64,000 bases of DNA, taken from contig CAIVGN010000198.1 of NCBI GenBank assembly GCA_903905455.1, positions 1 to 64,000 of the forward strand. Reading direction: 5' to 3'. Every line of letters starts with the position of its first letter. The first letter of the stretch is position 1. Below, piece after piece: positions 2,194-44,205 of this stretch. Source of the stretch: an uncultured Archangium sp. Its GTDB lineage: Bacteria; Myxococcota; Myxococcia; Myxococcales; Myxococcaceae. A program made the position numbers and the translations under genes. The notes under the pieces were generated by a model that was not told the DNA's origin, searched no databases, and saw nothing but the letters and a program-made list of their open reading frames with translations.

Positions 2194-2199
2194 GCCCCC

Positions 2200-3417
2200 A
2201 TGAGCTACCTCGAGTATTTCGGACTCAGCAGCGAACCCTTCAGTAACGCCCCGGTCAGCCGGTTCTATTACAACGCGCCGCAGCACCAGCAGGCGCTGGC
2301 GCGGCTGCTGTACGCCGTGAACTCGATGAAGGGGCTCGCGGTGTTGGTCGGCGAGATCGGCGCGGGCAAGACCACGCTGGCCCGGCGCATGCTCGATTCG
2401 TTGCCCGAGGAAGAGTACGAGGCCGCGCTGCTCGTCATCATTCACTCGGGCATCACCGCCAGCTGGCTGTTGCGGCGCATCGCGCTCCAGATCGGTGTCG
2501 AGAACCCGGCGCAGGAGAAGCTCGCGTTGCTCAGCCAGCTCTACCAGCGGCTGCTGCAGATCTACGAGCAGGGTCGCAAGGCCGTGGTGCTGATCGACGA
2601 AGCCCAGATGCTCGAGACCCGCGAGTTGATGGAGGAGTTTCGCGGGCTGCTGAACCTCGAGGTCCCGGAGCGCAAGCTGATCAGCTTCGTGTTCTTCGGG
2701 CTGCCGGAGATCGAGAAGAACCTCAAGCTCGACCCCCCGCTCGCCCAGCGCGTGGCGATGCGTTACCGGCTCGAGCCGTTCACCTCCGAGTCCACGGAGG
2801 CCTACGTGAAGCACCGGCTGCGCCTGGCCGGCAGCGCCCGCATGCCCTTCACCCCGGACGCCATCGAGGCCGTGCACCGCCGGGGTGGCGGCACCCCCCG
2901 GGTGATCAACACCATCTGCGACAACGCGCTCTTCGAGACCTTCCTCGCCCGCGGCGCCGAGATCCGTGGGCCGCTCATCGAGCAGATCGCCGACAACCTC
3001 GGCCTCGAGACGCGGCCCACCATGCCGCCCATCGTCGTGTCTTCCCCGGCGCCTGCCGCGGGGATCCCGGCGATCGCCCCCCTGGTGGCCCCGGTGGCCG
3101 TGCCGCACGCCCCGGCGACGGCGCCCACGCCGGTGTTCACCGTGCCCCCGGTCGCCCCGCCTCGGGTGGCTCCCGTGCCCCCGGCGCTCGCGGTGGCCCC
3201 CGTGGTGGCCACGGTGCGCGCCCCGGCGCCGCCCGCCATCGCGCCGCGGCCTCCCGACGGCTCGATGGCTTCGGCCGTCGCCGGGCTGACCGGTGAGGTG
3301 CCCAGCGCGCTGGCGCCCTCCGCTCCGAGTGCCGCCGGTGGTACGCCGTCCAAGCCCAAGGCTGGCGTCGACCTCGCGGAGATTGATCGCTACCTCGAGG
3401 GGCTCGGGAAGCTGTAG
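2200..3417 (+). CDS. ExeA/GspA-like AAA ATPase
   Basis: A 405-residue protein. It begins with the YLEYFGLSSEPFSNAP signature typical of ExeA-like ATPases, has a Walker A motif GEIGAGKTT at residues 51-59 and a Walker B motif VVLIDEAQ at about 129-136, and carries the helical lid of AAA+ proteins to about residue 265. The last 140 residues are Ala/Pro/Val-rich low complexity with a short conserved-looking end. The family includes GspA, which with GspB helps insert the type II secretin, and many stand-alone ATPases. No secretion gene is nearby; the tight spacing suggests it works with the upstream TPR protein or the downstream TamB/TamA pair. No transmembrane segment is evident, so it is probably cytoplasmic. 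Confidence 0.88.
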   Translation: MSYLEYFGLSSEPFSNAPVSRFYYNAPQHQQALARLLYAVNSMKGLAVLVGEIGAGKTTLARRMLDSLPEEEYEAALLVIIHSGITASWLLRRIALQIGVENPAQEKLALLSQLYQRLLQIYEQGRKAVVLIDEAQMLETRELMEEFRGLLNLEVPERKLISFVFFGLPEIEKNLKLDPPLAQRVAMRYRLEPFTSESTEAYVKHRLRLAGSARMPFTPDAIEAVHRRGGGTPRVINTICDNALFETFLARGAEIRGPLIEQIADNLGLETRPTMPPIVVSSPAPAAGIPAIAPLVAPVAVPHAPATAPTPVFTVPPVAPPRVAPVPPALAVAPVVATVRAPAPPAIAPRPPDGSMASAVAGLTGEVPSALAPSAPSAAGGTPSKPKAGVDLAEIDRYLEGLGKL

Positions 3418-3472
3418 TCCCGGCTGAATGTTGTGCCTGCGACCAGGCACAGCTGAACGGAAGGAGCGCCAG

Positions 3473-6400
3473 GTGCAGCCGTCTCGACGCCGCTGGCGAC
3501 AAGCGATCGGTGTGTTGGCCGCGTTGCTCGTGGCCGCCACGCTGCTCGTGCGCACGGATCGCGCCGGTGAGTTCGTGTGCGCCCAGTTGCGCCAGCGACT
3601 GCCCGCGGCGCTCGACGCCGACGTCGAGCTGGGCCGTTGTTCCATCGACCCGCTGACCGCGAACGTCGAGATCAGCCGTATTTCCGTCACGCTGCACCCG
3701 GCCACGCAGCCCCTGCTGACCGCGGAGAAGGCGGCCGTGTCATTGCGCGGGCTCTTCATGGGCGGCATCGCGCTCCAGGACGTCGAGCTGGTGCGCCCCC
3801 GTGTCGAGGTGGTGTTGCCGCAGGCCGCGTCGGCGGGGGGGGGCGGGTGCCCGGTCAGCGAGGTGGCGCGGCTGCGTGTCGGCCGGCTGCGGGTGGTCGA
3901 CGGGAGCGTGGTGGTGCATCACCCCAGCGGCAAGTCGGTGCGGCTCGACGGCTTGAGCGTGGAGGCCTCGCTCGATCGCCGGGCGGCGACGGTGCTCATC
4001 GACGCCCGCAGCGGGGCCGTCACCTTCGAAGGGCGCACCCTGCGCATGGGCAAGCTCCTGCTCGAGGGCGCGCTCGACCTCGAGGCCCTGCAGGTCGAGG
4101 TGCAGCGCGCGGAGGTCAGCGTCGAGGGCGTCACCCTCACTGCCACGGGCACCATCGACGGGCTGTGCGACCCCGCCCCGACGCTCGACCTCACGGCCCA
4201 GGCCTATGTGCCGCTCGAGGCGTTGCCTCGCCTCGGGGTGCCGCTGCCGACGCCCTCGGGCCAGGTGCTGGCCCGCGTGGCGGTGACGGGCAAGGTCGAC
4301 GCCCTGTCGGTGCGCGGAGAGCTCCAGGGGGCGCAGGTAGTGCTCGGCCCGTACACCCCGGGCGACTTCTCGGTGCGCGCGGCCTGGAGCGGCAAGACGG
4401 TGACGCTCGAGGAGTTCGTCACGAAGTCGGGCGACGGCGAGGTGCGCGTGTCGGGCGAGGTGTCGCTGCAGCCTGGCTACCCGGTCACCGCGCGCATCGA
4501 GACGAAGGACGCCTCGTTCGCCCGCATCATGGCGCGGGCCGGCGTCAGCGGGGCGTGGGTGGAGTTCCCGGCGTCGGTGAAGGGCTCGGTGAGCGGCACG
4601 CTGGGCCCCACCCCGGTGCTCGGCGGTGACATCGAGTTTCGCACCGGCCGCTTCGTGCTCGCGGCGCGCCCCTGGGACGGCCCCCGGGCGGCGGGCATCG
4701 ACATCCTGGGCTTCAAGCAGTCGGCGGGCCGGTTCCACCTCGGGGTGACCTCGCAGGTGATCAGCTTCGATGACGTGGCGATCAGCGTCGGCGCCGAGGA
4801 GCGCACCCGCGTCTCGGGCGCGGTGAAGCTCTTCCCCTGGCAGCCGGGGCTGGAGGTGCACGTCTCGGGCGACGCGCTCGATCTCTCCGACTTCGGGTCG
4901 ATCTCCGAGCTGCCCTGGTCGGGCCTGGGGCAGGCGCGGGTGTCGGTGACCGGCCCCTTCTCGGGCATCACGGTCGACGGCCAGCTCACCCTGCGCGACT
5001 TCAAGTTGAGCGGCTATTCGCCGGGCGTGGTGCAGAGCCCCCTTCACTACTTCGGGGAGACGCTGTCGTTCCCCGCGCTGGTCGCCCAGAAGGGCCAGAC
5101 CCAGTACTTCGGCGACGTCGCGCTGATGTTCAAGGACACCGGGTTGCACGCCCGGGCGACCGTGCAGTTGCCCGACGGGCGCGTCGAAGACGTGGTCGAG
5201 TTGCTCGCCGACCTGAGCCCCACGATGGAGAACCTGCAGGACGGCGCGCTGACCGGGCGCTTGAGCCTGCTGATGGCGATCGACTGCCCGGTGAGCGAGC
5301 TGACCGGGGTGATCGCCTCTCGGGTGCGCGACGTGCGCTACCTCGATCGGCGCATGGGCGAGGCCGATCTCATCGCGCGCTTCGAGGAGGGCAGCTCGAT
5401 GCTCCTCGAGCCGACGATCTTCACCGGGCCCCTGGGGCGCTTCGCCGTCGACGGGCGCTGGGCCTTCGCCGGGCCCCTCGATTTCCGCATGGCCCTGGAG
5501 GGGGGCTCGCTGGGGGAGCTGATCGACCCGGAGGGCGCGCGCAAGCTGCCGGTCTCGGGCGGCTTCGTGGCCAAGGCGAAGGTCGGCGGCACCACCGACC
5601 TGATGTTGGTCAACGGCTGGATGTCGTCCACCGACGTGACGTGGAAGCAGTCGGTGCTGGGGCCCATGCATCTGGAGGCGAAGGTGGTGGGGCGCGAGCT
5701 CGAGACCTCGGGCGCCGTCTTCCCCGGGCTCCAGCTCGGGCTGACCATGAGCATGCGCAACGAGTGGCCCTTCAAGGCGCACCTCGGGGTGCAGCTGGGC
5801 GATCTCTCTGCGTTCCTGCCGGAGGCGGCCGCGTCGGTGGCGCTGCGGGTGAAGGCCGAGGTCGACGCCCACGGCCCGATGCGCGACTTCGACAAGGTCA
5901 GCGCGCGGGCGACGCTCGGTGAGTTCAACATCGCGCGCGGCGAAGTGACCGCGGCCAACGTGGGCCCCATCGAGCTGGCGTGGAACGCCGGGGCCTTCGA
6001 GGTCGACGCGCTGGAACTCCGGGGGCCCACCACGGAGCTCACCGCGGCCGGCACCTGGGGGCCGGTGAACGTCGATCTCAAGACCCGCGGCTCCGTCGAC
6101 CTGCGCCTGCTCTCGAGCCTGAGCAGCACCTTCGAGCGCACCGCGGGGCGCCTCGAGTTCACCGCGGCCTTCGCCGGCCCGGTGCGCGCGCCGACGCTCG
6201 CGGGCAACGCCTCGCTGTCCGACACCCGCTTCTCGGTGCGCGGGTACGACGCGGCGGTGCGCTCGCTCTCGGGGCGGGCCGACTTCTCCGAGTCGCGGGT
6301 CATCGTGCAGGACGTGCAGGGGTTCCTGAACGACGGCCGGGTGCGCGGTCACGGCGACATTCGCCTCGAGCAGTTCGCCATGAAGTCGATGGAGTTCCAG

Positions 6401-7360
6401 ACCGACCTGGAGGACGTGTCGATCCAGGTGTTGCCCGAGGTGCCGGTGACGCTCACCGGGTCGCTGCTGCTCGGCTCGCGCAACGCCCAGCTCTTCCAGC
6501 TCTCGGGTGGCCTGGACATCGTGAAGTTCCGCTACACGCAGGCCCTCACGCTGGACCAGTTGGTGGCCACGGCGCGCGCCAAGCCGGTGCCCAGCGATGC
6601 GCGGCCCGACGAGTGGCTGCGCTTCGACGTCGACCTGCGGACCGCGGGCGACGTGCGCATCGAGAACAACCTCGCGCGGGCGCGCCTCGCGGGTCGCCTC
6701 AAGCTCTCGGGCACCAACGTCAAGCCGGTGCTGATCGGCGTGGTGGAGACGCAGGAGGGGGCGCAGGCCTTCTTCCGCGGGAACACCTTCAACGTGCAGC
6801 GCGGCCAGCTCCAGTTCAACGGCCTGTGGCCGACCTTCGACCTCTCGGCCCAGAGCCAGATGCGCGAGTACCTGGTCACGGTGAAGGCCTTCGGGCGCAT
6901 CGAAGACCCCAAGCTGACCTTCACCTCCGAGCCGCCGCTGCCCGACGCGGACATCCTCTCGCTGCTGACCCTCGGGGTGACCTCGCGGGAGCGGATCACC
7001 GAGAGCTCGGGCGCCGGGCTCGCCGCCGAGGCGCTGCTCTCGGCCTCCGGGCTCGACCAGCAGGTGCAGCGCTTCTTGAGCCAGAGCGTCGGGCTCAAGG
7101 ACCAGCAGGTCAAGCTGACCACGGCCTTCAACGAGGTCACCGGCACCGCCGAACCCGCGGTGATCTGGGAATCGAAGGTGCTCTCGGACAACCTCAAGGT
7201 CGGGGTGACCCAGCCCGTCACCGGCCGGGGGACCAAGGCCCAGGCCGAATACCGCTTCAATCAACGGGTCTCGGCGCGCGCGCAGTGGGACAATCAGACG
7301 CAGAACTCCACCGTCGGAAACCCCGGCGTGGAACTGCGATTCCGATTCGAATGGGAGTGA
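3473..7360 (+). CDS. tamB: TamB-like translocation and assembly module / lipid-bridge protein
   Basis: I choose the GTG at 3473 (1295 aa) because GGAAGGAG lies 6 nt upstream; an ATG at 3428 would add 15 unlikely residues. One N-terminal membrane anchor follows an Arg-rich start (residues about 11-27). The rest is a very long beta-rich AsmA-like region ending in a C-terminal DUF490/TamB domain (about the last 330 residues, with FFRGNTFNVQRGQLQFNG and PPLPDADILSLLTLG). TamB family proteins span the periplasm and pair with the Omp85 protein TamA; related proteins are implicated in moving phospholipids to the outer membrane. The gene overlaps tamA by 10 nt, which supports translational coupling. 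Confidence 0.9.
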   Translation: MQPSRRRWRQAIGVLAALLVAATLLVRTDRAGEFVCAQLRQRLPAALDADVELGRCSIDPLTANVEISRISVTLHPATQPLLTAEKAAVSLRGLFMGGIALQDVELVRPRVEVVLPQAASAGGGGCPVSEVARLRVGRLRVVDGSVVVHHPSGKSVRLDGLSVEASLDRRAATVLIDARSGAVTFEGRTLRMGKLLLEGALDLEALQVEVQRAEVSVEGVTLTATGTIDGLCDPAPTLDLTAQAYVPLEALPRLGVPLPTPSGQVLARVAVTGKVDALSVRGELQGAQVVLGPYTPGDFSVRAAWSGKTVTLEEFVTKSGDGEVRVSGEVSLQPGYPVTARIETKDASFARIMARAGVSGAWVEFPASVKGSVSGTLGPTPVLGGDIEFRTGRFVLAARPWDGPRAAGIDILGFKQSAGRFHLGVTSQVISFDDVAISVGAEERTRVSGAVKLFPWQPGLEVHVSGDALDLSDFGSISELPWSGLGQARVSVTGPFSGITVDGQLTLRDFKLSGYSPGVVQSPLHYFGETLSFPALVAQKGQTQYFGDVALMFKDTGLHARATVQLPDGRVEDVVELLADLSPTMENLQDGALTGRLSLLMAIDCPVSELTGVIASRVRDVRYLDRRMGEADLIARFEEGSSMLLEPTIFTGPLGRFAVDGRWAFAGPLDFRMALEGGSLGELIDPEGARKLPVSGGFVAKAKVGGTTDLMLVNGWMSSTDVTWKQSVLGPMHLEAKVVGRELETSGAVFPGLQLGLTMSMRNEWPFKAHLGVQLGDLSAFLPEAAASVALRVKAEVDAHGPMRDFDKVSARATLGEFNIARGEVTAANVGPIELAWNAGAFEVDALELRGPTTELTAAGTWGPVNVDLKTRGSVDLRLLSSLSSTFERTAGRLEFTAAFAGPVRAPTLAGNASLSDTRFSVRGYDAAVRSLSGRADFSESRVIVQDVQGFLNDGRVRGHGDIRLEQFAMKSMEFQTDLEDVSIQVLPEVPVTLTGSLLLGSRNAQLFQLSGGLDIVKFRYTQALTLDQLVATARAKPVPSDARPDEWLRFDVDLRTAGDVRIENNLARARLAGRLKLSGTNVKPVLIGVVETQEGAQAFFRGNTFNVQRGQLQFNGLWPTFDLSAQSQMREYLVTVKAFGRIEDPKLTFTSEPPLPDADILSLLTLGVTSRERITESSGAGLAAEALLSASGLDQQVQRFLSQSVGLKDQQVKLTTAFNEVTGTAEPAVIWESKVLSDNLKVGVTQPVTGRGTKAQAEYRFNQRVSARAQWDNQTQNSTVGNPGVELRFRFEWE

Positions 7361-10300
7361 CCCTTCTTCTTCTCGCGCTGCTCACGCAGGCGCCGGCCGA
7401 GACGGCCCAGACCATCACCGGGGTCGAGGTGCGCCTGCCCGCTGGCGCCGACTCGCACCTGCTCGACCGCGTGCCCCAGTTGGTCACCGTGCGCCGGGGC
7501 CAGTTGCTGTCGCGCCGGGCCATCGAGCGCTCCATCGAGAGCCTCTTCGCGACGGGCAAGTTCGCGGACATCGAGGTGCTCGGGCAGGACGGGCCGGGGG
7601 GCGTGGCGGTCATCTTCAACCTCGTGCCGCGCAAGAACATCGGCACCCTCTTCGTCGAGGGGGCGCTGCAGCTGAGCCGGGACGAGGTGCTCGCCTCGAC
7701 CGGCCTCGAGAGCGGGGCCGAGTACTGGCCCGAGCGCATCGAGCACGCCGCGGAGAACGTGCGCGCGCAGTACCGGCGCCGGGGCTACCGGGCGGTGGAG
7801 GTGCGCACCGAGGCCGTCGCGCTCGAGGGCACCATGACGGTGGGCTTCATCGTGCGCGAGGGTGAGCCGAGCCGGGTGCGCGCGGTGGCGCTCTCGGGAG
7901 ATCCCGGCCTGCCGCTGGGGCGCGTCGTCGAGGCCTTCGGGCTGAGCCCCGCGGACGTGCTCGACCTCTCGAAGGTCGACCAGGGCCTCGAGCGGGTGCG
8001 CAACCTGTACCGCCGGGAGCGCTTCTTCCGCGCGCGCGTGGACGTGCCGGAGGTGACGGACGACGGGCGCGTGGTGATCCCCGTGGTGTCGGGGCCGCGC
8101 TACGACCTGGTGTTCAGCGGCAACCGCGTGGTGTCCGACAGCGGGCTGCGGGTGATCCTCGGGTACGACGGCGACGAGACCCTCGACCAGGCGCTCTCGC
8201 AGCGGCTGGGGGCGCGCGTCGAGCGCTTCTACCGGTTCCGCGGGTACCACGACGTCCGGGTGACCACCTCCGAGGTGCGCCGCGGCGGGGGCGAGGCGGC
8301 GCTGGGCTTCGACATCGAAGAGGGCGCGCCCGTGCGGGTGGCGTCGATCGCCTTCGACGGCGCCCAGGTGATTGGGCCGGCCGAGCTGCGCGCGGTGCTG
8401 CAGGGGGTGATGGAGGCGGCCGCCCCCCCGGTGCCCTTCGAGCTGCACAGCACCGGCGACCCCACCGACGTCCACGGGCGCCACGAGCCGGTGTTCGCCC
8501 AGTCGCTGCCGCACCCCGCGATGGACACCGTGCTCGAGGAGGCGACGTGGGGCGAGGCGGCGAAGGCCATGGCGGTGCTGTACCGCGAGCGGGGCTACCT
8601 CAAGGCCAGCGTTGCCTTCGCCGGGGCCGAGGTTCGGGGCCCGTCTGCCACCGCGCGCTTCACCGTCGACGAGGGCCCCCGGGCCCGGTTCAGGCGCGTC
8701 GACGCCACGGGGCTGCCCGCAGGCTTCACCTCGGAGGCGATGGCCCTGGTCCGCATCGACGCGCCCTTCAGCCCGGGCGAGCTGCAGCACCTCGAGCAGG
8801 ACGTCACCCGCGAGCTGGGCCGCAAGGGCTACCTCTTCGCCGACGTGAACACCTCGTACACCCTCGACACCTCGGGGCAGCTCGCCGACGCGCTGGTGAG
8901 CGTGACCGCGGGGCCGCAGGTGAAGGTGCGCGCGGTGCTGCCGGTGGGGCAGGTGCGCACCGCGGAAGAGATCATCACCCGCCAGGCCACGATGAAGGAG
9001 GGGTTGCCGCTGGACGCCGAGTCGCTGTTCTCGACGCAGGCCAACCTCTCGGGCCTGGGCATCTTCCGCACGGTGCAGGTGGAGATGCTGTCCCCGGACC
9101 GGCCCGAGCCGCTCAAGACCATCGTCCTCAAGGTTCGCGAGCGGCCCCTGTTCTCGGCCGAGGGCTTCCTCGGGTACTTCTACGCCGACGGCATTCGCGG
9201 CGGCGTCGAGGGCTCGATCTCCAACATCGGCGGCCGCGGCATCACGCTGAGCGGCCGCGCGCAGGGCAACCTCTTCTTCACCTCGGTGCCCGCGCTGACC
9301 AACCAGGTCGATCTCTCGGACCTCGCCATCTACCAGCGCATGGGCGGGCGCGTGAACCTCTCGCTCGACGCGCGCAGCCTGCTGCCGGCGGGCCTGGGGT
9401 TGCGCTTCGACGTCATCGCCGAGCGCGTGTTTCGCCCCCAGTTCCGTTTCTCGCGCGTCGCCGGGGTGCCCACGCTCGACTGGAGCCGGGCCTTCGAGAT
9501 CCCCCGCATCGAGTGGCTGCGCCCCAAGTTCTCGGTGGCCCTGCAGTACGAGGCCGAGTGGAGCTTCGTCGAGCGGGTGGGCACGGCGCTCACCTCGCTG
9601 CCCCCCACGAGCATCGTGGACCAGGAGCGGCTGCGGTTCCTCTTCGGCGAGTTCGCGCTGCACGGGGTGCGGCTCAACAGCACCCTCGACCTGCGCGACA
9701 GCGCGCTGACGCCGAAGCGGGGGTTGCTGCTGCAGGCCTCCGGCGAGATCACCGGGGCGCTGTACGCCCGCGACGAGAAGGGCAACGACGTCACGGTGAA
9801 CTTCGCGAAGGTGAGCGCTTTGGCGACCGCCTACGTGCCCATCGGCGAGCGCCTGGTCTTCGCGGTCTCGGCGCGCGGGGGCCGCATCTTCCCGCTGGCT
9901 GCGGGTTCGACCACGCCCCCGGTGCGGCGCTTCTTCATGGGCGGGGCCACGAGCGTGCGCGGCTTCAACGAAGACCAGCTCATCGCCGAAGACAGCCGCC
10001 AGAAATACCAGGAGCAGGTGAAGGCCTGCCAGGTGCTCGCGGTGAAGGACGGGTGCTCGTCGGCGGCCAAGACGGTGCTCGCGGGGCGGCAGGTGCCTTC
10101 CCAGGGTGGCGAGCTCTTCGCGCTCTTCAAGGGCGAGCTCCGGTTCCCGGCGCTCAGCGTGTTCGACCTCGGGGTCTTCTTCGAGATGGGCAACCTCTGG
10201 CTGGCGGTGCCCGACGCCTTCTCGCTGCGGCCGGTGGTGGGGGCGGGGGTGCGCTACGTGACCCCCGTGGGCCCGCTGGCGCTCGACTTCGGCGTCAACC

Positions 10301-10365
10301 TCGTGCCCGATCTGCTGATCAACGAGCCGCGAGTCGTGGTCCACTTCAACATCGGCGTCTTCTGA
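7351..10365 (+). CDS. Omp85-family outer membrane assembly protein (TamA/BamA-like)
   Basis: 1004 aa starting at the ATG at 7351 inside the end of tamB. A short signal peptide (MGVTLLLLALLTQAPA) precedes a long series of POTRA-like modules (to about residue 600) and a C-terminal 16-strand barrel domain. The L6-loop motif VRGF, diagnostic of Omp85 proteins, is at residues 869-872 (base 9955), and the chain ends in the aromatic HFNIGVF. The POTRA region is longer than in E. coli TamA (three POTRAs), nearer to BamA or larger. Its place directly behind tamB argues for a TamA role. The open frame extends upstream to 5980, but that part is out-of-frame tamB sequence. Confidence 0.9.
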   Translation: MGVTLLLLALLTQAPAETAQTITGVEVRLPAGADSHLLDRVPQLVTVRRGQLLSRRAIERSIESLFATGKFADIEVLGQDGPGGVAVIFNLVPRKNIGTLFVEGALQLSRDEVLASTGLESGAEYWPERIEHAAENVRAQYRRRGYRAVEVRTEAVALEGTMTVGFIVREGEPSRVRAVALSGDPGLPLGRVVEAFGLSPADVLDLSKVDQGLERVRNLYRRERFFRARVDVPEVTDDGRVVIPVVSGPRYDLVFSGNRVVSDSGLRVILGYDGDETLDQALSQRLGARVERFYRFRGYHDVRVTTSEVRRGGGEAALGFDIEEGAPVRVASIAFDGAQVIGPAELRAVLQGVMEAAAPPVPFELHSTGDPTDVHGRHEPVFAQSLPHPAMDTVLEEATWGEAAKAMAVLYRERGYLKASVAFAGAEVRGPSATARFTVDEGPRARFRRVDATGLPAGFTSEAMALVRIDAPFSPGELQHLEQDVTRELGRKGYLFADVNTSYTLDTSGQLADALVSVTAGPQVKVRAVLPVGQVRTAEEIITRQATMKEGLPLDAESLFSTQANLSGLGIFRTVQVEMLSPDRPEPLKTIVLKVRERPLFSAEGFLGYFYADGIRGGVEGSISNIGGRGITLSGRAQGNLFFTSVPALTNQVDLSDLAIYQRMGGRVNLSLDARSLLPAGLGLRFDVIAERVFRPQFRFSRVAGVPTLDWSRAFEIPRIEWLRPKFSVALQYEAEWSFVERVGTALTSLPPTSIVDQERLRFLFGEFALHGVRLNSTLDLRDSALTPKRGLLLQASGEITGALYARDEKGNDVTVNFAKVSALATAYVPIGERLVFAVSARGGRIFPLAAGSTTPPVRRFFMGGATSVRGFNEDQLIAEDSRQKYQEQVKACQVLAVKDGCSSAAKTVLAGRQVPSQGGELFALFKGELRFPALSVFDLGVFFEMGNLWLAVPDAFSLRPVVGAGVRYVTPVGPLALDFGVNLVPDLLINEPRVVVHFNIGVF

Positions 10366-10387
10366 CCGTCGCCAGGGGGTCGCAACG

Positions 10388-11719
10388 ATGTTCTACCGGC
10401 TGGTGAGGGCGATCGTCTCCGTGGCGCTCGGGCTGTTCTACCGGATCGAGGTCGTGCGGCGCGTGGACGACTTCCGGGGCCCGGTGATGTTCGTCGGCAA
10501 CCACCCCAACAGCCTCATCGACCCGGCGATGGTGTTCGTGATCACCGACCGCCAGGTCACCTTCCTCGCGCGCGAGCCGCTCTTCCGCGTGCCCGTGCTG
10601 GGGTGGATCTTGCGCGGCATCAACGCGCTGCCGGTGTACCGCAAGCAGGATCACCCGGGCCTGATGGAGAAGAACGAGGGGACGCTCGACGCCGCGGCGA
10701 AGGCCCTCGCCGACCAGTTGGCGATCACCATCTTCCCCGAGGGCAAGTCGCACTCGGCGCCGCAGCTCTCGGACATCAAGACCGGCTGCGCGCGCATCGC
10801 GCTCAAGGTGGCCCGGGGCGGCCAGTCGCTGCGCATCATCCCCATCGGGCTGACCTACGCGCAGAAGCACCAGTTCCGCAGCCGGGTGCACGTCGAGGTG
10901 GGCGAGCCGATCCTGGTCGAGGCGGTGGGCGCGCTCGAGGGCGACGCCGAGCACCAGTGGGTGCGCGCCTTGACCAACCAGGTGGGCGACGCGATGCGGG
11001 CCGTGACCCTCAACCTCGAGACCTGGGAAGACCTGGACCTCATCAAGACCGCCGACCGGCTCTTCGCCCTGCGCAACGGCTACCGCGAGCAGGACAGCGA
11101 TCGCCTGCGGCTCTTCGCCAGGGGCGCCTCGATGCTGCGCACCGTCGACCCGGAGCGCTTCGACGATCTCAAGGAAGACGTGCTCTCGTACTGCGCGCGA
11201 CTCGAGGTGGTGCGCTCAGACCCGGGCGATCTCGCGGTGCACTTCGAGGGCTCGCAGGTGCGCTCCTTCGTGTTGCGCAACCTCGCGGCGCTGGTGTTCG
11301 GGTTCCCCCTCTTCGCGCTGGGCCTGCTGCTGTTCTTCGTGCCCTTCCTGTCCTTGAGGGCGTTGGCGCTGGCGGTGCCGGTCTCGCGCGATCGCCAGGC
11401 GACGGTGAAGTTCAGCCTCGCGGTGTTCATCGTGCCCGCGTGGTGGACGTTGCTGACCTGCGCCGGTTGGTACTTCGCGGGCCTGCCGGGCCTGGTGCTG
11501 ATGCTGGTGGGCTCGCTGCCACTGGCGATCTTCACCCGCTACTTCCTCGAGCGCCGCCACGCCGCGCTCAACGACAGCGTGGCTTTCTTCAAGCTGGGCA
11601 ACCGCTCGCGGCTGCGGGCGCACCTCCTGGCCGAGGGCGAGCGCCTGCAGGAGGAGATTCAGCGCACCGTCGACGAGCTCATGCCGAAGCTGGAGGCGGA
11701 GTCCCGGGCGCAGGCTTGA
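10388..11719 (+). CDS. PlsC/GPAT-like glycerolipid acyltransferase
   Basis: 443 aa. The catalytic motif is NHPNSLIDP (His39, Asp45), one residue longer than the classic HX4D and like the GPAT subfamily of yeast Gat1/Sct1; the substrate-binding motif FPEGKSHS is at 116-123. Hydrophobic segments at about 295-385 anchor the C-terminal part. It should acylate glycerol-3-phosphate or a lysophospholipid at the inner membrane. It starts 22 nt after tamA with AGGGGG ahead of the ATG and ends the envelope block. Its 3' end overlaps the convergent MFS gene by 41 bp. Confidence 0.85.
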   Translation: MFYRLVRAIVSVALGLFYRIEVVRRVDDFRGPVMFVGNHPNSLIDPAMVFVITDRQVTFLAREPLFRVPVLGWILRGINALPVYRKQDHPGLMEKNEGTLDAAAKALADQLAITIFPEGKSHSAPQLSDIKTGCARIALKVARGGQSLRIIPIGLTYAQKHQFRSRVHVEVGEPILVEAVGALEGDAEHQWVRALTNQVGDAMRAVTLNLETWEDLDLIKTADRLFALRNGYREQDSDRLRLFARGASMLRTVDPERFDDLKEDVLSYCARLEVVRSDPGDLAVHFEGSQVRSFVLRNLAALVFGFPLFALGLLLFFVPFLSLRALALAVPVSRDRQATVKFSLAVFIVPAWWTLLTCAGWYFAGLPGLVLMLVGSLPLAIFTRYFLERRHAALNDSVAFFKLGNRSRLRAHLLAEGERLQEEIQRTVDELMPKLEAESRAQA

Positions 11720-12938
11720 AATAACGGGCGCCGATCAGCAGCACCACGCCGCCCAGCAGCACCGGCAGCGCGTTGATCTGGATGGCCGTCGCCAACCCGG
11801 GGCCGCCGCGCTGCTTCGAGGCGTCGCTGACCCAGCCGATGAGGTACGGCGAGGCCGCGTCGCCCAGCAGGTGCAGCATCATCGTCGAGATGCTGAAGGC
11901 GAAGGCCCGGAAGCCCGGCGACACCACGTTGACGATGGCCGCGTTGAGCGGGCCCTGGTTCAAGAAGATGAGGAACTGGGCGAGGAGCAGGGTGATCAGC
12001 AGGAGCGCCTTCGACTCGGCGTGCACCGCGAGGATCATCATGGGGGCCGCCAGCGCGAGGCCCACGCCCGACATCCAGATGCCGCCGCCCGGAGATCGCT
12101 TCTCGATGCGATCTCCCAGCACGCCGCCGACCAGCGTGCCGAGGAACCCGCCGATGACCGTGGTCGCGCCCAGGGCGAGGCCGGCGTCGGTGCCCGAGAA
12201 GCCGCGCTCCGACTCGAGGAACTTGGGCATCCAGTTCGACAGGCCGCCGATGGAGAAGGTCATCAACGTGAGCCCCGAGGTGACCACCCAGAAGCGGCCG
12301 TTCGACGCGAGCGCCTTGAGTCCCTCGAGGAAGGGGACCTTCTCCAGCGGCCCCTCGTCCATGCCCCCGCGCTTCGGCTCGGCGAGTCCGAACGCGAAGA
12401 GCCCCAGCAAGATGCCCGGCGCGCCGCCCACGAAGAACGCGGCCTGCCAGCCGAAGCGGTCGCCGACGAAGCCCCCGAGGATGAAGCCCAGGGCCGCGCC
12501 CAGCGGCATGGCCGTGTAGAAGACCGCCAGCATGCGGCTGCGCTGTTCCCGCCGAAAGAGGTCGGAGATGAACGACGGCGCCACGGTGCCGTAGCCGGCC
12601 TCACCGACGCCGGTCGCCGCGCGGGCGAAGACCAGCAGCAGGAAGCTCGCCGCGAGGCCCGAGGCGATGGTGGCGAGGCTCCACAACAACACGGCGCAGC
12701 CGATGAGAATGCGGCGGGGCACGCGGTCGCCCAGGAAGCCGCCGATGGGGCTGGCCACGAGGTAGACGATCATGAAGGTCGTCGCCAGCAGGCCGCCCTG
12801 GGCGTCGCTGAGCGTGAAGTGGTCCTGCACCTTCTTCATCACGCCCGCGAGGATGTAGCGGTCGGTGTAGTTGAGCAGGTTGACGAGCGTGAGAATGGCC
12901 AGCCCGTAGCGGGCCTGCTTCGGCGTGAGCGTGCTCAT
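11679..12938 (-). CDS. MFS transporter, Spinster-like
   Basis: 419 aa with about twelve hydrophobic helices. The start region LVNLLNYTDRYILAGV and the first loop GGFLGDRVPRRILIG are typical of the major facilitator superfamily, closest by eye to the Spinster/lysolipid or organic-anion branch; RAATGVGEAGYGTVAP in helix 4 supports that branch. The substrate cannot be read from sequence. It follows the Ppx/GppA gene by 4 nt on the same strand and is probably the last gene of a three-gene operon. Its last 41 bp are antisense to the end of the acyltransferase gene. Confidence 0.88.
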   Translation of the reverse strand: MSTLTPKQARYGLAILTLVNLLNYTDRYILAGVMKKVQDHFTLSDAQGGLLATTFMIVYLVASPIGGFLGDRVPRRILIGCAVLLWSLATIASGLAASFLLLVFARAATGVGEAGYGTVAPSFISDLFRREQRSRMLAVFYTAMPLGAALGFILGGFVGDRFGWQAAFFVGGAPGILLGLFAFGLAEPKRGGMDEGPLEKVPFLEGLKALASNGRFWVVTSGLTLMTFSIGGLSNWMPKFLESERGFSGTDAGLALGATTVIGGFLGTLVGGVLGDRIEKRSPGGGIWMSGVGLALAAPMMILAVHAESKALLLITLLLAQFLIFLNQGPLNAAIVNVVSPGFRAFAFSISTMMLHLLGDAASPYLIGWVSDASKQRGGPGLATAIQINALPVLLGGVVLLIGARYFKPAPGTPPPASA

Positions 12939-39872: not shown

Positions 39873-39903
39873 TTGGCGTGACCGCTGACGGAACTGTTAC
39901 ACC
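39873..39903 (+). promoter_or_regulatory. Putative promoter of the kinase operon
   Basis: TTGGCG (39873-39878) and an extended -10 TGTTACACC (39895-39903) with a 19-nt spacer. Start near 39910 would give a leader of about 29 nt holding AGAAGG at 39922-39927. A 12-mer here (39897-39908, TTACACCCGAAG) recurs in reverse orientation at 47891-47902. Confidence 0.45.
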
Positions 39904-39938: not shown

Positions 39939-41720
39939 ATGGCCGATCTCAGTAACCCCTCCCGTCCCGGAGCGACCCCTCAACAGCCCGCAGAATCGCC
40001 CTCTGGGATGGGCAAATATCGGCTCATCGCCGAACTCGGTCGTGGCGGGATGGCTGACGTTTACCTCGCGGTCGCCGCAGGGCCGGGTGGCTTCAACAAG
40101 CTGCTGGTGATCAAGCAGCTGCGCATGGTCGACGACCCGTCGATGGTGACGATGTTCCTCGACGAGGCGAAACTCGCCGCGCGGGTCAGCCACCCGAACA
40201 TCGTGCAGACCTTCGAGGTCGCCCAGGAAGCGTCACGCGCGTACATGGTGATGGAGTTCCTCGACGGCCCGTCGCTCTCGCGCCTGCGTCGGGCCGCGGT
40301 GAAGCAGGGCGAGCGGGTGCCGCTGGGCATCGAGCTGCACATCATGCGCGAGGCGCTGCTGGGGCTTCACTCGGCCCACGAGCTGCGCGACTACGACGGG
40401 AAGCCACTCAACGTGGTGCACCGCGACTTCACGCCGCAGAACATCATGACCACCTATGCCGGCGACGCGAAGATCGTCGACTTCGGCATCGCCAAGGCGC
40501 TCGACCAGGAAGGCAAGACCTCCGCGGGCGTCTTCAAGGGCAAGCTGAGCTACGTGCCGCCCGAGCAGTTGATGGGCGCGGCGGTCGATCGCCGCACCGA
40601 CGTCTTCGCGGCCGGCGTGATGCTCTACGAGGCGGTGACCGGTGCTTCGCCGTGGCAGGGCAAGACCAACGCGCAGATCACCCACGAGCTGGCGAGCGGC
40701 AACATCCCGCGGCTCATGGAGAACGAAGACGCGCCCGCCGAGCTCGCGGCGATCATCGACCAGGCGATGGCCATCGATCCCGACGATCGCTACGAGACGG
40801 CCGATGAGCTGCGGCTGGCCCTCGACGAGTTCATTCGGGAGCACAAGCTCGAGCTCGATCGCGCCAAGCTCGGCACCTACGTCACCAGCGTGCTCGGCGA
40901 CGCCAAGGAGATCACCCGTCGCTTGATCGAGCACCGCCTGCGCGAGGTCAACTCGCTGCCCTCGGCGGAGACGCTCAACGTAGCGCTGCCCACGCTCGAC
41001 AGCCTCACGCCGTCGCCCGCGGCCAAGCAGGTCGGGCGATCGTTGCCGCAGATGATGGCGTCCGACCAGATGCCGGACACCGGCCGCGGTCCGTCACCCG
41101 ATCCGGTCTCGGTCGTCACCGTGGCCAGCCCCATGACGCGGGTGGTGCTCGGGGGCCTGGGCGTCGTGGTCCTGGCGCTGGTGGTGGTGGTCGGGTTCCT
41201 GGTGTCGCGCTCGCCCGCGCAGCCCGTGGCGGTGGTCGCGACGCCCGTGGTCGCACCCGCGGCCGTGACGCCTGCCCCGGCGCCGGTGGAAGTTCGCCCA
41301 GTGGTCGCCCCTGAGCCGGTCCCTGCCGCGCCCCCGGCCGAAGCGAAGCTGGTGACGATGCGCTTCAGCGCCTCGCCCTCGACGGCGCGGTTGTTCCTGG
41401 ACGCCCTGCAGCTGCCTTCAAACCCCTACGAGGGTTCCTTTCCCGCTGACGACCGTCTCCACGAGCTGCGGGCCTCGGCCCCTGGCCACGTCGAGGTGCG
41501 GCGCGGCATCGCGCTCGATCGTGACCTGTCGATCGACTTGACCCTCTCGAGGGAGGTCGCCGCGGGTACTGCTTCTCGGAGGCCGACGCCTCCGGCTCCC
41601 ACCCCGACGGCCCCCGCGAAGCCTGCGACGGGCAAGACCGATGACCCTGAATACTTCGCGCCCGCGAGCGGCGAGAAGAAGCAGCCCAAGCGCTCGCTGG
41701 ACAACGTCGAGTTCGAATGA
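39939..41720 (+). CDS. Membrane Ser/Thr protein kinase with extracytoplasmic PEGA-like domain
   Basis: 593 aa. Kinase domain about 27-300: Gly loop GRGGMADVYLA, Lys59 in VIKQL, Glu76, catalytic HRDFTPQN (161-168) and DFG (181-183), so it should be active; Phe-Thr replaces the usual Leu-Lys in the catalytic loop, as often in myxobacterial kinases (HRDVSPxN). After a juxtamembrane linker there is one transmembrane helix (about 402-423), a Pro/Val-rich spacer and a PEGA-like domain (about 475-535, SPSTARLFLDALQLPSNPYEG). Kinase domain in the cytoplasm, PEGA outside. Stop overlaps the next ATG (ATGA). Ends in an acidic tail. Confidence 0.92.
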   Translation: MADLSNPSRPGATPQQPAESPSGMGKYRLIAELGRGGMADVYLAVAAGPGGFNKLLVIKQLRMVDDPSMVTMFLDEAKLAARVSHPNIVQTFEVAQEASRAYMVMEFLDGPSLSRLRRAAVKQGERVPLGIELHIMREALLGLHSAHELRDYDGKPLNVVHRDFTPQNIMTTYAGDAKIVDFGIAKALDQEGKTSAGVFKGKLSYVPPEQLMGAAVDRRTDVFAAGVMLYEAVTGASPWQGKTNAQITHELASGNIPRLMENEDAPAELAAIIDQAMAIDPDDRYETADELRLALDEFIREHKLELDRAKLGTYVTSVLGDAKEITRRLIEHRLREVNSLPSAETLNVALPTLDSLTPSPAAKQVGRSLPQMMASDQMPDTGRGPSPDPVSVVTVASPMTRVVLGGLGVVVLALVVVVGFLVSRSPAQPVAVVATPVVAPAAVTPAPAPVEVRPVVAPEPVPAAPPAEAKLVTMRFSASPSTARLFLDALQLPSNPYEGSFPADDRLHELRASAPGHVEVRRGIALDRDLSIDLTLSREVAAGTASRRPTPPAPTPTAPAKPATGKTDDPEYFAPASGEKKQPKRSLDNVEFE

Positions 41721-42670
41721 TCCGCCCAATCCCGCTGATGATGTCGGTGGTGCTCCTTGCGAGCGCCGCCCAAGCTGCAGACCCCGCCGCAAACGAGGCC
41801 GCGAAGAAGCACTTCACGCGGAGCAAGGAGCTGTACGACGACGGTGACTTCGCCGCGTCGCTCAACGAGCTCGAGCGCTCCTACCAGGCGGTGCCCAACT
41901 ACAAGCTGCTCTACAACATGGGGCAGATCCAGGCCCAGTTGCAGAACCACGCCGGGGCGCTGCGGAGCTTCCGGCGGTTCCTCTCTGAGGGCGGCAACGA
42001 GATCATCGACGCGCGTCGCGGCGAGGTCCTCAAGGAGATCGACAAGCTGCGCACGCGCGTCTCGGAGCTCACCATCACCGTGAGCCAGCCCGGGGCCGAG
42101 ATCAGCGTCGACGACGTGGTGGTCGGAACCAGCCCATTGAGCGACCCCATCACGGTCAACGCGGGCAAGCGCAAGGTGAGCGCGACGCTGCCCGACTACT
42201 TCCCGGCGACGAAGCAGGTGGACGTGGTGGGGCTCGAGACGCCCCGCCTGGCCCTCGAGCTGCGCCCGCTGGTGACCTCCTCGGCGACGAGCTCCACCAC
42301 CGCGGCCCCGGCCGAGGCGGTGAAGGTCGAGCCTTCCAAGCCGTTCCGGCTCCCGGTCTGGGTGCCGTGGGCGGGGACCGTGGTGCTCGCCGGCGGTACG
42401 GCGGTGACCGCGGTGCTGGCCAACCAGGCGTCGCAGAAGCAGACGGCGCTGCTCAAGACCTACGGGGTGACGCGGCCGCAGCTCGACGCGGCGAGCGCCT
42501 CGACGCGCAACCTGGCGCTGACCACCGACATCCTCGCCGGCGTGACCGGCGCGGCGGCGGTGGGCTCGTTGCTCTTCACCTTGCTCCGCGCGCCGGAGCC
42601 CGCCCCCGCGGCGACCACCGTGCAGGTCGGCGTCGGCCCCAACTCTCTCGTCGTCAGCGGATCGTTCTGA
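41717..42670 (+). CDS. TPR- and PEGA-domain membrane protein
   Basis: 317 aa. A signal sequence (MMSVVLLASAAQAA) precedes TPR helices (residues about 28-105, KHFTRSKELYDDGDFAASLNE, YNMGQIQAQLQNHAGALRS) and a PEGA domain (about 115-185, ITVSQPGAEISVDDVVVG). Two hydrophobic segments follow (about 215-235 and 272-292), so the middle part is probably periplasmic with a membrane-anchored C-terminus. Its PEGA domain mirrors that of the kinase directly upstream, with which it overlaps by 4 nt. Common myxobacterial architecture, function unknown. Confidence 0.85.
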   Translation: MIRPIPLMMSVVLLASAAQAADPAANEAAKKHFTRSKELYDDGDFAASLNELERSYQAVPNYKLLYNMGQIQAQLQNHAGALRSFRRFLSEGGNEIIDARRGEVLKEIDKLRTRVSELTITVSQPGAEISVDDVVVGTSPLSDPITVNAGKRKVSATLPDYFPATKQVDVVGLETPRLALELRPLVTSSATSSTTAAPAEAVKVEPSKPFRLPVWVPWAGTVVLAGGTAVTAVLANQASQKQTALLKTYGVTRPQLDAASASTRNLALTTDILAGVTGAAAVGSLLFTLLRAPEPAPAATTVQVGVGPNSLVVSGSF

Positions 42671-42672
42671 TC

Positions 42673-42981
42673 ATGTCGCGAATTCTTCTCGTGGTGGGCG
42701 CCCTCGTGGCGCTCTCGGGCTGCTCGTTGATCGTCGAGCAGCGCAAGGTGCAGTGCTCCACCGATGCCGACTGCGTGGCCTTTGCCCCGCACCCCTTCTG
42801 CATCGAGGGCGTGTGCGTGGAGTCGGGCCTGGGGCCTGCGGGCTGCTTCGTGGGCGAGGCGTCGAGCGATCTCGACTACCTGAACCGGTGCTCGACCGGC
42901 TGCATCGAGTTCGACAACTGTGCGCGGCTCGGCTGGTGCGACGCCGCCGCGACTCTCCCTGCGATCCTCGCGAGGCCCTGA
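42673..42981 (+). CDS. Small Cys-rich lipoprotein
   Basis: 102 aa from the ATG at 42673. Lipoprotein signal LLVVGALVALSGC, then CSTDADCVAFAPHPFCIEGVC, the same Cys pattern as in the 28744 repeat protein, and a second Cys group (CSTGCIEFDNCARLGWC). It starts 2 nt after the TPR-PEGA stop and ends 3 nt before the next start, so it belongs to the kinase operon. Likely anchored in the outer or inner membrane, facing the periplasm. Confidence 0.75.
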   Translation: MSRILLVVGALVALSGCSLIVEQRKVQCSTDADCVAFAPHPFCIEGVCVESGLGPAGCFVGEASSDLDYLNRCSTGCIEFDNCARLGWCDAAATLPAILARP

Positions 42982-42984
42982 ACC

Positions 42985-44205
42985 ATGTCCCGCCAACTCT
43001 TCCTGACCCTGACCACCCTGGCGACCGGTGCCTTCGCGCAGACCGTGATGCCGACCGCCGGCTACAACTGCAAGGACGCCGCTGACGGGCGCGCGAACGT
43101 GATCTACGTCGCCGGCTCTTCGGCCATCAGGCCCTTCCTGGGCGTGGTCGCGGGCCTGGTGAAGGCCGACGGCTACACGCTGGTGTACCAGTCGCAGGGC
43201 TCGTGCACGGGCGTCGCGGCCATCCTCGACCCCGACGCCACCAAGCACCTCATCAAGGACATCCCCGCGGCGGCAGGCAAGGCAGCCAACTACGCGCTGG
43301 TGCTCAACGCCGATGGCACGGGCAAGGAGTGCTTCCTCGACCCGGCGGGCAACACCGTCGACGTCGGCGCTTCCGACGTGTTCGCCGATTCGTGCGGCTA
43401 CACCCTGGGGGCGGGCTTCAGCGACTTCGAGGGACCGGTGCAGCCGATGACCATGGTGGTCTCTGCGGTCTCGACGCAGCAGTCGATCAGCGCCGAGGCG
43501 GCGTACATGGTCTTCGGCATGGGCGGCAACGAGGGGAAGGCGACCCCGTGGACGGACCCGACCTACTACTTCGTGCGCAACGCCAGCTCGGGCACCCAGC
43601 AGATGGTCGCCCGCGCGGTGAAGGTGCCCGCGGACAAGTGGTGGGGCAAGGACCGTGGCGGCTCCGGCGCGGTGCGGACCGGCATGAAGACGCTGCTCGA
43701 CCAGGCGGGCGCAGAGAAGGGCATCGGCATTCTCTCGACCGACGTGGTCGACGACGAGCGCGGCAACCTGCGCGTGCTGGCCTTCAAGCCCTTCGGTGGC
43801 CTGTGCGCGTACCTGCCGGACTCGACGGCGACGAGCTTCGACAAGCGCAACGTGCGTGACGGCCACTACCCCATCTGGGGCCCGGTCCACTTCTTCGCCC
43901 AGACGAGCAGCGGCGTGCCCAGCGCGGCGGCCTCGTCCCTGGTGACGCGCTTCGCGGCCCCGAAGCTCGACCAGACCTTGATGGACGCCATCATCAAGAA
44001 GCACCTCGTGCCCAAGTGCGCGATGGCGGTGAAGCGCTCTGCGGAGATCGGCCCGTTCCAGAAGCGCGTCGCCACGGACTTCCGTTGCGATTGCTACTTC
44101 GAGAAGGTCGCCACGGGCGCGTCGAGCTGCGCGACCTGCACCACTGCGACGGACTGCCCGTCGGACGCGCCGGCCTGCAACTACGGGTACTGCGAAGCCC
44201 ACTGA
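42985..44205 (+). CDS. PstS-like periplasmic binding protein with Cys-rich tail
   Basis: 406 aa. Signal peptide MSRQLFLTLTTLATGAFAQ. The core resembles type II periplasmic binding proteins of the PstS group: NVIYVAGSSAIRPFLGVV at the start, QGSCTGVAAI, VDVGASDVFADSC and the later NASSGTQQMVARAV. Cysteines are more frequent than in PstS. The last 25 residues form a Cys-rich tail (CATCTTATDCPSDAPAC). No ABC permease or ATPase is near, so it probably serves sensing rather than transport. Last gene of the kinase operon, 3 nt after the lipoprotein. Confidence 0.7.
   Translation: MSRQLFLTLTTLATGAFAQTVMPTAGYNCKDAADGRANVIYVAGSSAIRPFLGVVAGLVKADGYTLVYQSQGSCTGVAAILDPDATKHLIKDIPAAAGKAANYALVLNADGTGKECFLDPAGNTVDVGASDVFADSCGYTLGAGFSDFEGPVQPMTMVVSAVSTQQSISAEAAYMVFGMGGNEGKATPWTDPTYYFVRNASSGTQQMVARAVKVPADKWWGKDRGGSGAVRTGMKTLLDQAGAEKGIGILSTDVVDDERGNLRVLAFKPFGGLCAYLPDSTATSFDKRNVRDGHYPIWGPVHFFAQTSSGVPSAAASSLVTRFAAPKLDQTLMDAIIKKHLVPKCAMAVKRSAEIGPFQKRVATDFRCDCYFEKVATGASSCATCTTATDCPSDAPACNYGYCEAH

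Follow-up and report, generated by a model that had tools for sequence, protein, structure and literature searches.

The stretch of DNA analysed here, which we call the window, comprises 64,000 nucleotides of contig CAIVGN010000198.1 from an uncultured Archangium sp., and holds at positions 39939-44205 an operon of four + strand genes that, judged from their sequences, look like one cell-envelope sensor in a soil bacterium. In order, the genes encode a transmembrane Ser/Thr kinase (gene 1, 39939-41720, 593 aa), a secreted tetratricopeptide repeat (TPR)-PEGA protein with a C-terminal helical hairpin (gene 2, 41717-42670, 317 aa), a Cys-motif lipoprotein and putative tether (gene 3, 42673-42981, 102 aa), and a secreted PstS-like binding protein with a Cys-rich tail (gene 4, 42985-44205, 406 aa). 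The junctions are a 4-nt overlap (ATGA), a 2-nt gap and a 3-nt gap, exactly as given in the initial annotation of this DNA, which had also remarked that the binding protein comes without transporter genes. None is adjacent: the flanking genes, for a UvrD-type helicase upstream and an adenosine deaminase downstream, are functionally unrelated to the operon, and the PstC, PstA and PstB genes are not next to gene 4, the pst genes of this genome lying on another contig (C173). Below, L-codes denote loci and G-codes genomes, G000 being the window's own.

Gene 1 was first described as an apparently active transmembrane kinase, and its sequence agrees with this. The protein matches Pfam Pkinase (2e-39) at residues 27-287 (40017-40799) with catalytic residues intact; the glycine loop, K59, E76, H161-R162-D163, N168, D181-F182-G183 and P208-E209 vary little or not at all among the operon kinases, and a single transmembrane helix is predicted at 41142-41198 (hydropathy peak 2.95). 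An extracytoplasmic domain common to the operon kinases follows at 41346-41558 (105.6 bits against the ectodomain profile). The earlier description of this ectodomain as PEGA-like holds as a likeness; however, it gives no match to Pfam PEGA (PF08308) at E values up to 1, whereas the kinase of a second copy of the system, on contig C43 of the same genome, matches that family weakly (16.5 bits). Two class assignments were rejected for gene 1. It is not a PASTA kinase, its score against NF033483 being 216.8 bits versus a cut-off of 450, with the match confined to the kinase domain; nor is it a PknG, since its kinase domain is N-terminal, with one transmembrane helix and no TPR in the kinase.

Gene 2, annotated as a second PEGA protein with TPRs, does match Pfam PEGA at residues 116-184 (42062-42268; 32.3 bits against a gathering score of 20.8, E 9.5e-8) as well as TPR, and it carries a signal peptide consistent with secretion. 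Its structure model comprises TPR helices (residues 23-112), a PEGA sandwich (115-181) and, at lower confidence, a helical hairpin (215-290). All gene 2 homologs have Phe as their last residue, preceded by a conserved V-GVGPGS-like stretch (42637-42670 in the window), which is unstructured in the model. Gene 3 has the lipobox LSGC, with its Cys at residue 17, and a Cys motif, in line with its designation as a Cys-containing lipoprotein.

For gene 4, a structure model was obtained from 26 homologs (predicted local distance difference test score 88.6, predicted template modelling score 0.86). VIA-align of its core (model residues 36-368, 43090-44088) returned 4ecf (Z 25.3), 4lat (Z 25.2) and the phosphate-bound 4gd5 (Z 23.4), and superposition on 4ecf at 2.6 Å over 252 residues indicates the two-lobed PstS fold. 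The PstS motifs align in gene 4 as GS(S/T)A, GSC, GxSD and RxxSSGT, invariant or nearly so over the 26 homologs, among which S73, S130-D131, R198 and T204 are invariant; the RDGHYPIWG and GSC(T)G stretches align with PstS as well. The phosphate-contacting roles of these residues we take to be those of their counterparts in E. coli PstS. The PstS-like core named in the initial annotation is thus predicted to keep both the fold and the aligned ligand motifs of a binding cleft, and phosphate is its likely ligand.

The same annotation proposed searching myxobacterial genomes for conserved synteny of all four genes, and such synteny was found. Eleven loci of other genomes contain the four components together (L017-L020, L022, L023, L025-L029); they come from Myxococcaceae, Archangiaceae, Polyangiaceae, Kofleriaceae and metagenome-assembled genomes. 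The kinase gene lies upstream in L022, L023, L025-L027 and L029, 2.4 kb upstream in L028, and convergent downstream in Polyangium (L017-L020). Wherever a close gene 4 relative has enough flanking sequence, the lipoprotein and TPR-PEGA genes adjoin it, and a kinase bearing this type of ectodomain is present. Full-length gene 2 is found in 11 of the 12 genomes of the family with a close gene 4, the exception (G080) being truncated by a contig end. Gene 4, itself single-copy in the window's genome, belongs to a clade (support 100/100) that unites the proteins encoded in a kinase context. In G039 a 131-residue remnant is all that is left of gene 4, within surroundings that match those of the intact operon of G041, and this genome has lost the operon as a unit. 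One could argue that four unrelated genes became neighbours by accident, as the window's genome has about 123 kinase-like matches and a kinase beside any given gene is therefore not rare. However, synteny across families, the gene fusions described below, co-occurrence and the loss in G039 refute this, and we reject chance adjacency as having a negligible probability.

Strict orthology of the kinases across operons was rejected, because their kinase domains come from at least two clades. In a tree of kinase domains the operon kinases are split among at least two supported clades, and the starred branches force three label changes. Kinases of the Pyxidicoccus, Myxococcus and Hyalangium operons belong to a different clade from those of the window, Polyangium, Kofleriaceae, L025 and L035. 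Although L041 is the closer kin of gene 1 by kinase domain, the ectodomain of gene 1 is nearer to that of L022 (E 2e-21) than to that of L041 (1e-7). Sequence comparison thus has the ectodomain following the operon while the kinase domain was swapped, as would be expected if the ectodomain makes the contacts with the other three proteins. Among the roughly 123 kinases of the genome, a clear match to the ectodomain profile is seen in only two, gene 1 and the contig C43 kinase (57 bits), the next scoring 36.8.

Genes 3 and 4 form a single open reading frame in L027, in L028 and in the leading copy of a tandem pair in L025, indicating that the lipoprotein and the binding protein work jointly, the simplest division of roles being anchor and receptor. 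A weaker lipoprotein match shares its frame with the gene 4 homolog of L034, and a short gene 3-like head is fused to another binding protein in L080, L135 and L136. Distant gene 4 homologs (L030-L032, L036) are followed by a gene 3-like C-terminus, a weak match (21.7 to 68.7 bits) on which we do not rely. The L025 operon itself (5842-9221) contains two tandem lipoprotein/PstS-like pairs, the first fused and the second encoded as two genes.

The second copy (L080, C43:30000-48000) consists of a lipoprotein whose head resembles gene 3 and whose body is Peripla_BP_6 (1e-27), a different binding-protein fold family, followed by a kinase and then a TPR-PEGA protein 36% identical to gene 2 (5e-52); no transporter genes are adjacent to it in L080. 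This copy is kept in G088, at 84, 70 and 75% identity, while G052 has the binding protein and the TPR-PEGA protein. Another locus of the window's genome (L113, C48:17000-34000) encodes at 6823-9095 a TPR protein and then a Cys-motif lipoprotein with an ANF_receptor/Peripla_BP_6 domain, with no kinase adjacent, and is possibly a third, kinase-less relative. Relatives thus exchange the binding or the kinase module and retain the connecting pieces, which points to a modular receptor family. Tentatively, and a little short of an even chance, we would see here a myxobacterial class of modular receptor kinases, in which interchangeable solute-binding proteins are tethered through a shared lipoprotein head and are read out by the TPR-PEGA protein and the PEGA-like kinase ectodomain; binding protein and kinase domain would each have been swapped around a kept connector, and the version in the window would serve phosphate-starvation signalling as a Ser/Thr-kinase arm.

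An alternative would dispense with a ligand altogether: the PEGA domains and the Cys-rich lipoprotein would read stress on the cell wall or outer membrane, and the PstS-like fold would be a non-binding scaffold for interactions. PEGA domains are commonly extracytoplasmic, and the genome has several pairs of TPR-PEGA protein and lipoprotein with domains other than binding proteins, e.g., L116 with its MopE-type motif. However, the near-invariance of the ligand motifs over the 26 homologs is hard to reconcile with a scaffold, and the replacements of the PstS-like part are themselves other solute-binding folds (Peripla_BP_6 and, in L113, ANF_receptor). We therefore regard a pure envelope-state sensor as quite improbable.

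Several lines of genomic context connect the operon to phosphate. In Polyangium, a single intergenic region serves both the kinase gene and a gene for a PhoX phosphatase (8e-65), and gene 2 is preceded by a glycosyltransferase gene (PF13506) whose product is 44% identical to one encoded after phoU in the pst operon of Pyxidicoccus/Myxococcus relatives. A PhoX gene was sought in the window's own genome as a control and none was found. A 5′-nucleotidase gene adjoins the kinase in L035, and a response regulator, a histidine kinase, PstB, PstS and a permease are encoded within 8 kb in L032.

Upstream of the kinase, ten genomes of the family have a sequence of about 17 bp, GTCACGAANNNGTRAC, in two to four tandem copies. 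Its half-sites are spaced at 11 bp, a distance equal to that in the Pho box, published as two 11-bp direct repeats (PMC4415409). A matrix built solely from the operon promoters of relatives was run on six canonical pst loci (78 kb), where it found 11 sites of at least 15 bits, versus four in 529 kb of background, including one upstream of a gene 4 homolog. All 11 sites precede a porin-pstS pair or sit between pstS and pstC, and they fall in five of the six loci, the sixth (L182) reaching 14.6 bits at best. Regions upstream of pstS alone had looked empty of the operator, and whole pst loci then revealed the sites; a first-pass scan for an E. coli-type Pho box was only suggestive, and searching three genomes for the exact pattern returned fewer sites than a judgement would need. 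Two operator sites also lie in the Polyangium kinase/PhoX region (4/4 genomes) and two, of 16.0 and 15.5 bits, at another porin locus of the window's genome. In relatives, the predicted operators in front of the operon are thus shared with the canonical pst operons.

Such a setting could also mark an accessory for phosphate scavenging, in which gene 4 and the lipoprotein capture phosphate at the envelope and pass it to PstCA encoded elsewhere, the kinase and the TPR-PEGA protein being starvation-induced passengers that control envelope remodelling and do not read gene 4. The Pho-regulon location in relatives is genuine, and the context of distant gene 4 homologs is one of uptake: they are followed by a porin, with a phosphate-selective porin O/P match in L031, L037 and L038, and by ExbB, ExbD and TonB in L030-L032, L036, L138 and L139. 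However, the kinase-context clade of gene 4 has no porin or TonB genes, and the second copy keeps kinase, TPR-PEGA protein and lipoprotein head around an unrelated binding protein with no transporter genes beside it. Such a scavenging accessory is, in our view, rather unlikely. The distant homologs in these six loci constitute a sister group of gene 4 with a conserved porin, ExbB, ExbD and TonB cluster, mostly accompanied by a TonB-dependent receptor, which suggests an uncharacterised TonB-driven phosphate uptake system.

We propose that the four genes specify a receptor kinase that is coupled to a binding protein, responds to phosphate availability and would belong to the Pho regulon, and put the probability of this at roughly 0.55. 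Gene 4, which the gene 3 lipoprotein would keep close to the membrane, would bind periplasmic phosphate or a phosphate-like anion; in several relatives the two proteins are a single lipid-anchored chain. In its liganded or its unliganded state the binding protein would contact the gene 2 adaptor and the PEGA-like ectodomain of the kinase; this contact would alter the dimerisation or activity of the kinase in the cytoplasm, so that the phosphate-starvation response would gain Ser/Thr phosphorylation. Comparison between genomes is what ties the four genes together, while phosphate as the ligand, physical contact, the direction of signalling and the kinase targets are what we infer. The initial annotation had called the operon a candidate envelope-sensing system in which the binding protein or lipoprotein would signal via the PEGA domains to the kinase. 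As a claim about one unit this is well supported, by the synteny across families, the fusions of genes 3 and 4, the second copy with another binding protein, the ectodomain common to different kinase domains and the loss as a unit in G039; the phosphate context and the modularity had, however, been missed.

Five observations weigh against the phosphate-receptor proposal. First, the operon is sporadic, gene 4 being present in 15 of 96 genomes of the family and in none of the five others of its genus, which suggests that it is dispensable. Second, the best operator in front of the window's own operon (39885-39900, + strand) is a weak, Pho-box-like candidate of 7.2 bits by the matrix from relatives, and nine of 385 window tiles (~2%) score as high. 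Third, the pst locus of the window's own genome has no strong operator. Fourth, gene 4 falls below the curated cut-offs of both families, PF12849 (15.4 vs. 27 bits, E 0.016) and TIGR02136 (24.8 vs. 206.6 bits, 1e-5), so that annotation pipelines would probably miss it. Fifth, a Cys replaces Ser beside the first ligand Ser, and this swap, together with the low family scores, means that the ligand could differ from phosphate. Another oxyanion or a phosphorylated compound would suit a pocket that diverges in this way and in its large inserts and extra conserved cysteines, and the molybdate and sulfate binders have the same fold at lower Z. However, phosphate binders take all the top places among the structural matches, from Z 25.3 down to 16, the first molybdate binder following at 15, and the gene context and the operators shared with pst likewise argue for phosphate; a different ligand is accordingly unlikely.

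Among known systems, the phosphate-receptor proposal most resembles GlnH-GlnX-PknG of mycobacteria and corynebacteria, in which the gene for a lipid-anchored, non-transporter solute-binding protein accompanies those for a membrane protein and a Ser/Thr kinase (PMC6069109, PMC9769921); the ligand was proposed to control the kinase, and the authors expected more binding-protein-linked kinases (PMC6069109). Both operons, compared here by make-up and not by sequence, combine a kinase gene with those for a solute-binding and a membrane protein. We note three differences. First, PknG has a rubredoxin, a kinase and a TPR part and no transmembrane helix, whereas the kinase of the operon itself spans the membrane. 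Second, GlnX is a four-helix-bundle protein, whereas the adaptor here is a TPR-PEGA protein. Third, GlnH binds amino acids, whereas the binding protein here is PstS-like and its lipoprotein is usually a separate gene. By analogy, the operon would be closest to this system in mechanism, yet it is not a member, as kinase architecture and connecting protein differ. With PstS and the PstSCAB-PhoU-PhoR system it shares the predicted PstS fold, the aligned ligand motifs and, in relatives, the operators; unlike that system, it has no transporter genes and its kinase is of the Ser/Thr, not the histidine, type, and unlike PstS, gene 4 has large inserts, a Cys-rich tail and sub-threshold family scores. 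Gene 1 is, like the PASTA kinases (PknB/Stk1), a transmembrane Ser/Thr kinase with an extracytoplasmic sensor domain, but one that is PEGA-like and contains no PASTA. MSMEG_1200/StpK7, in which a solute-binding domain is fused to a Ser/Thr kinase (mentioned in PMC6069109), shows the same coupling within one polypeptide, whereas the operon has separate proteins with interchangeable binding modules, and gene 1 scored below the NF052427 cut-off in the family-model search. The open-access literature yielded no account of the four-gene set, of Myxococcus PEGA kinases or of binding-protein-coupled myxobacterial kinases, which is weak evidence of novelty, subscription papers being outside the scope of the search.

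The activators of bacterial Ser/Thr kinases are largely unknown, and myxobacteria carry such kinases by the hundred. As the ligand part here is a recognisable solute-binding protein, the stimulus becomes testable: phosphate for the operon in the window, another small molecule for the second copy. The natural swaps of binding part and kinase domain around a kept connector would likewise indicate the surfaces that carry the signal. If the proposal is true, phosphate-starvation signalling would gain a Ser/Thr-kinase arm alongside PhoR-PhoB.

Two further loci of the window's genome deserve mention. In L080 (1920-12101), the second copy is flanked by kinase genes (1920-4745 and 10131-12101) and a sigma-factor-like gene (4785-5639), and the order of kinase, sigma-like and binding-protein genes is preserved in G088 (L136). 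In L116 (C127:8000-24000), a TPR-PEGA gene overlaps, at 5488-8162, the gene for a Cys-rich lipoprotein with MopE-type metal-binding motifs, and a similar pair adjoins a kinase gene in L137 (G090).

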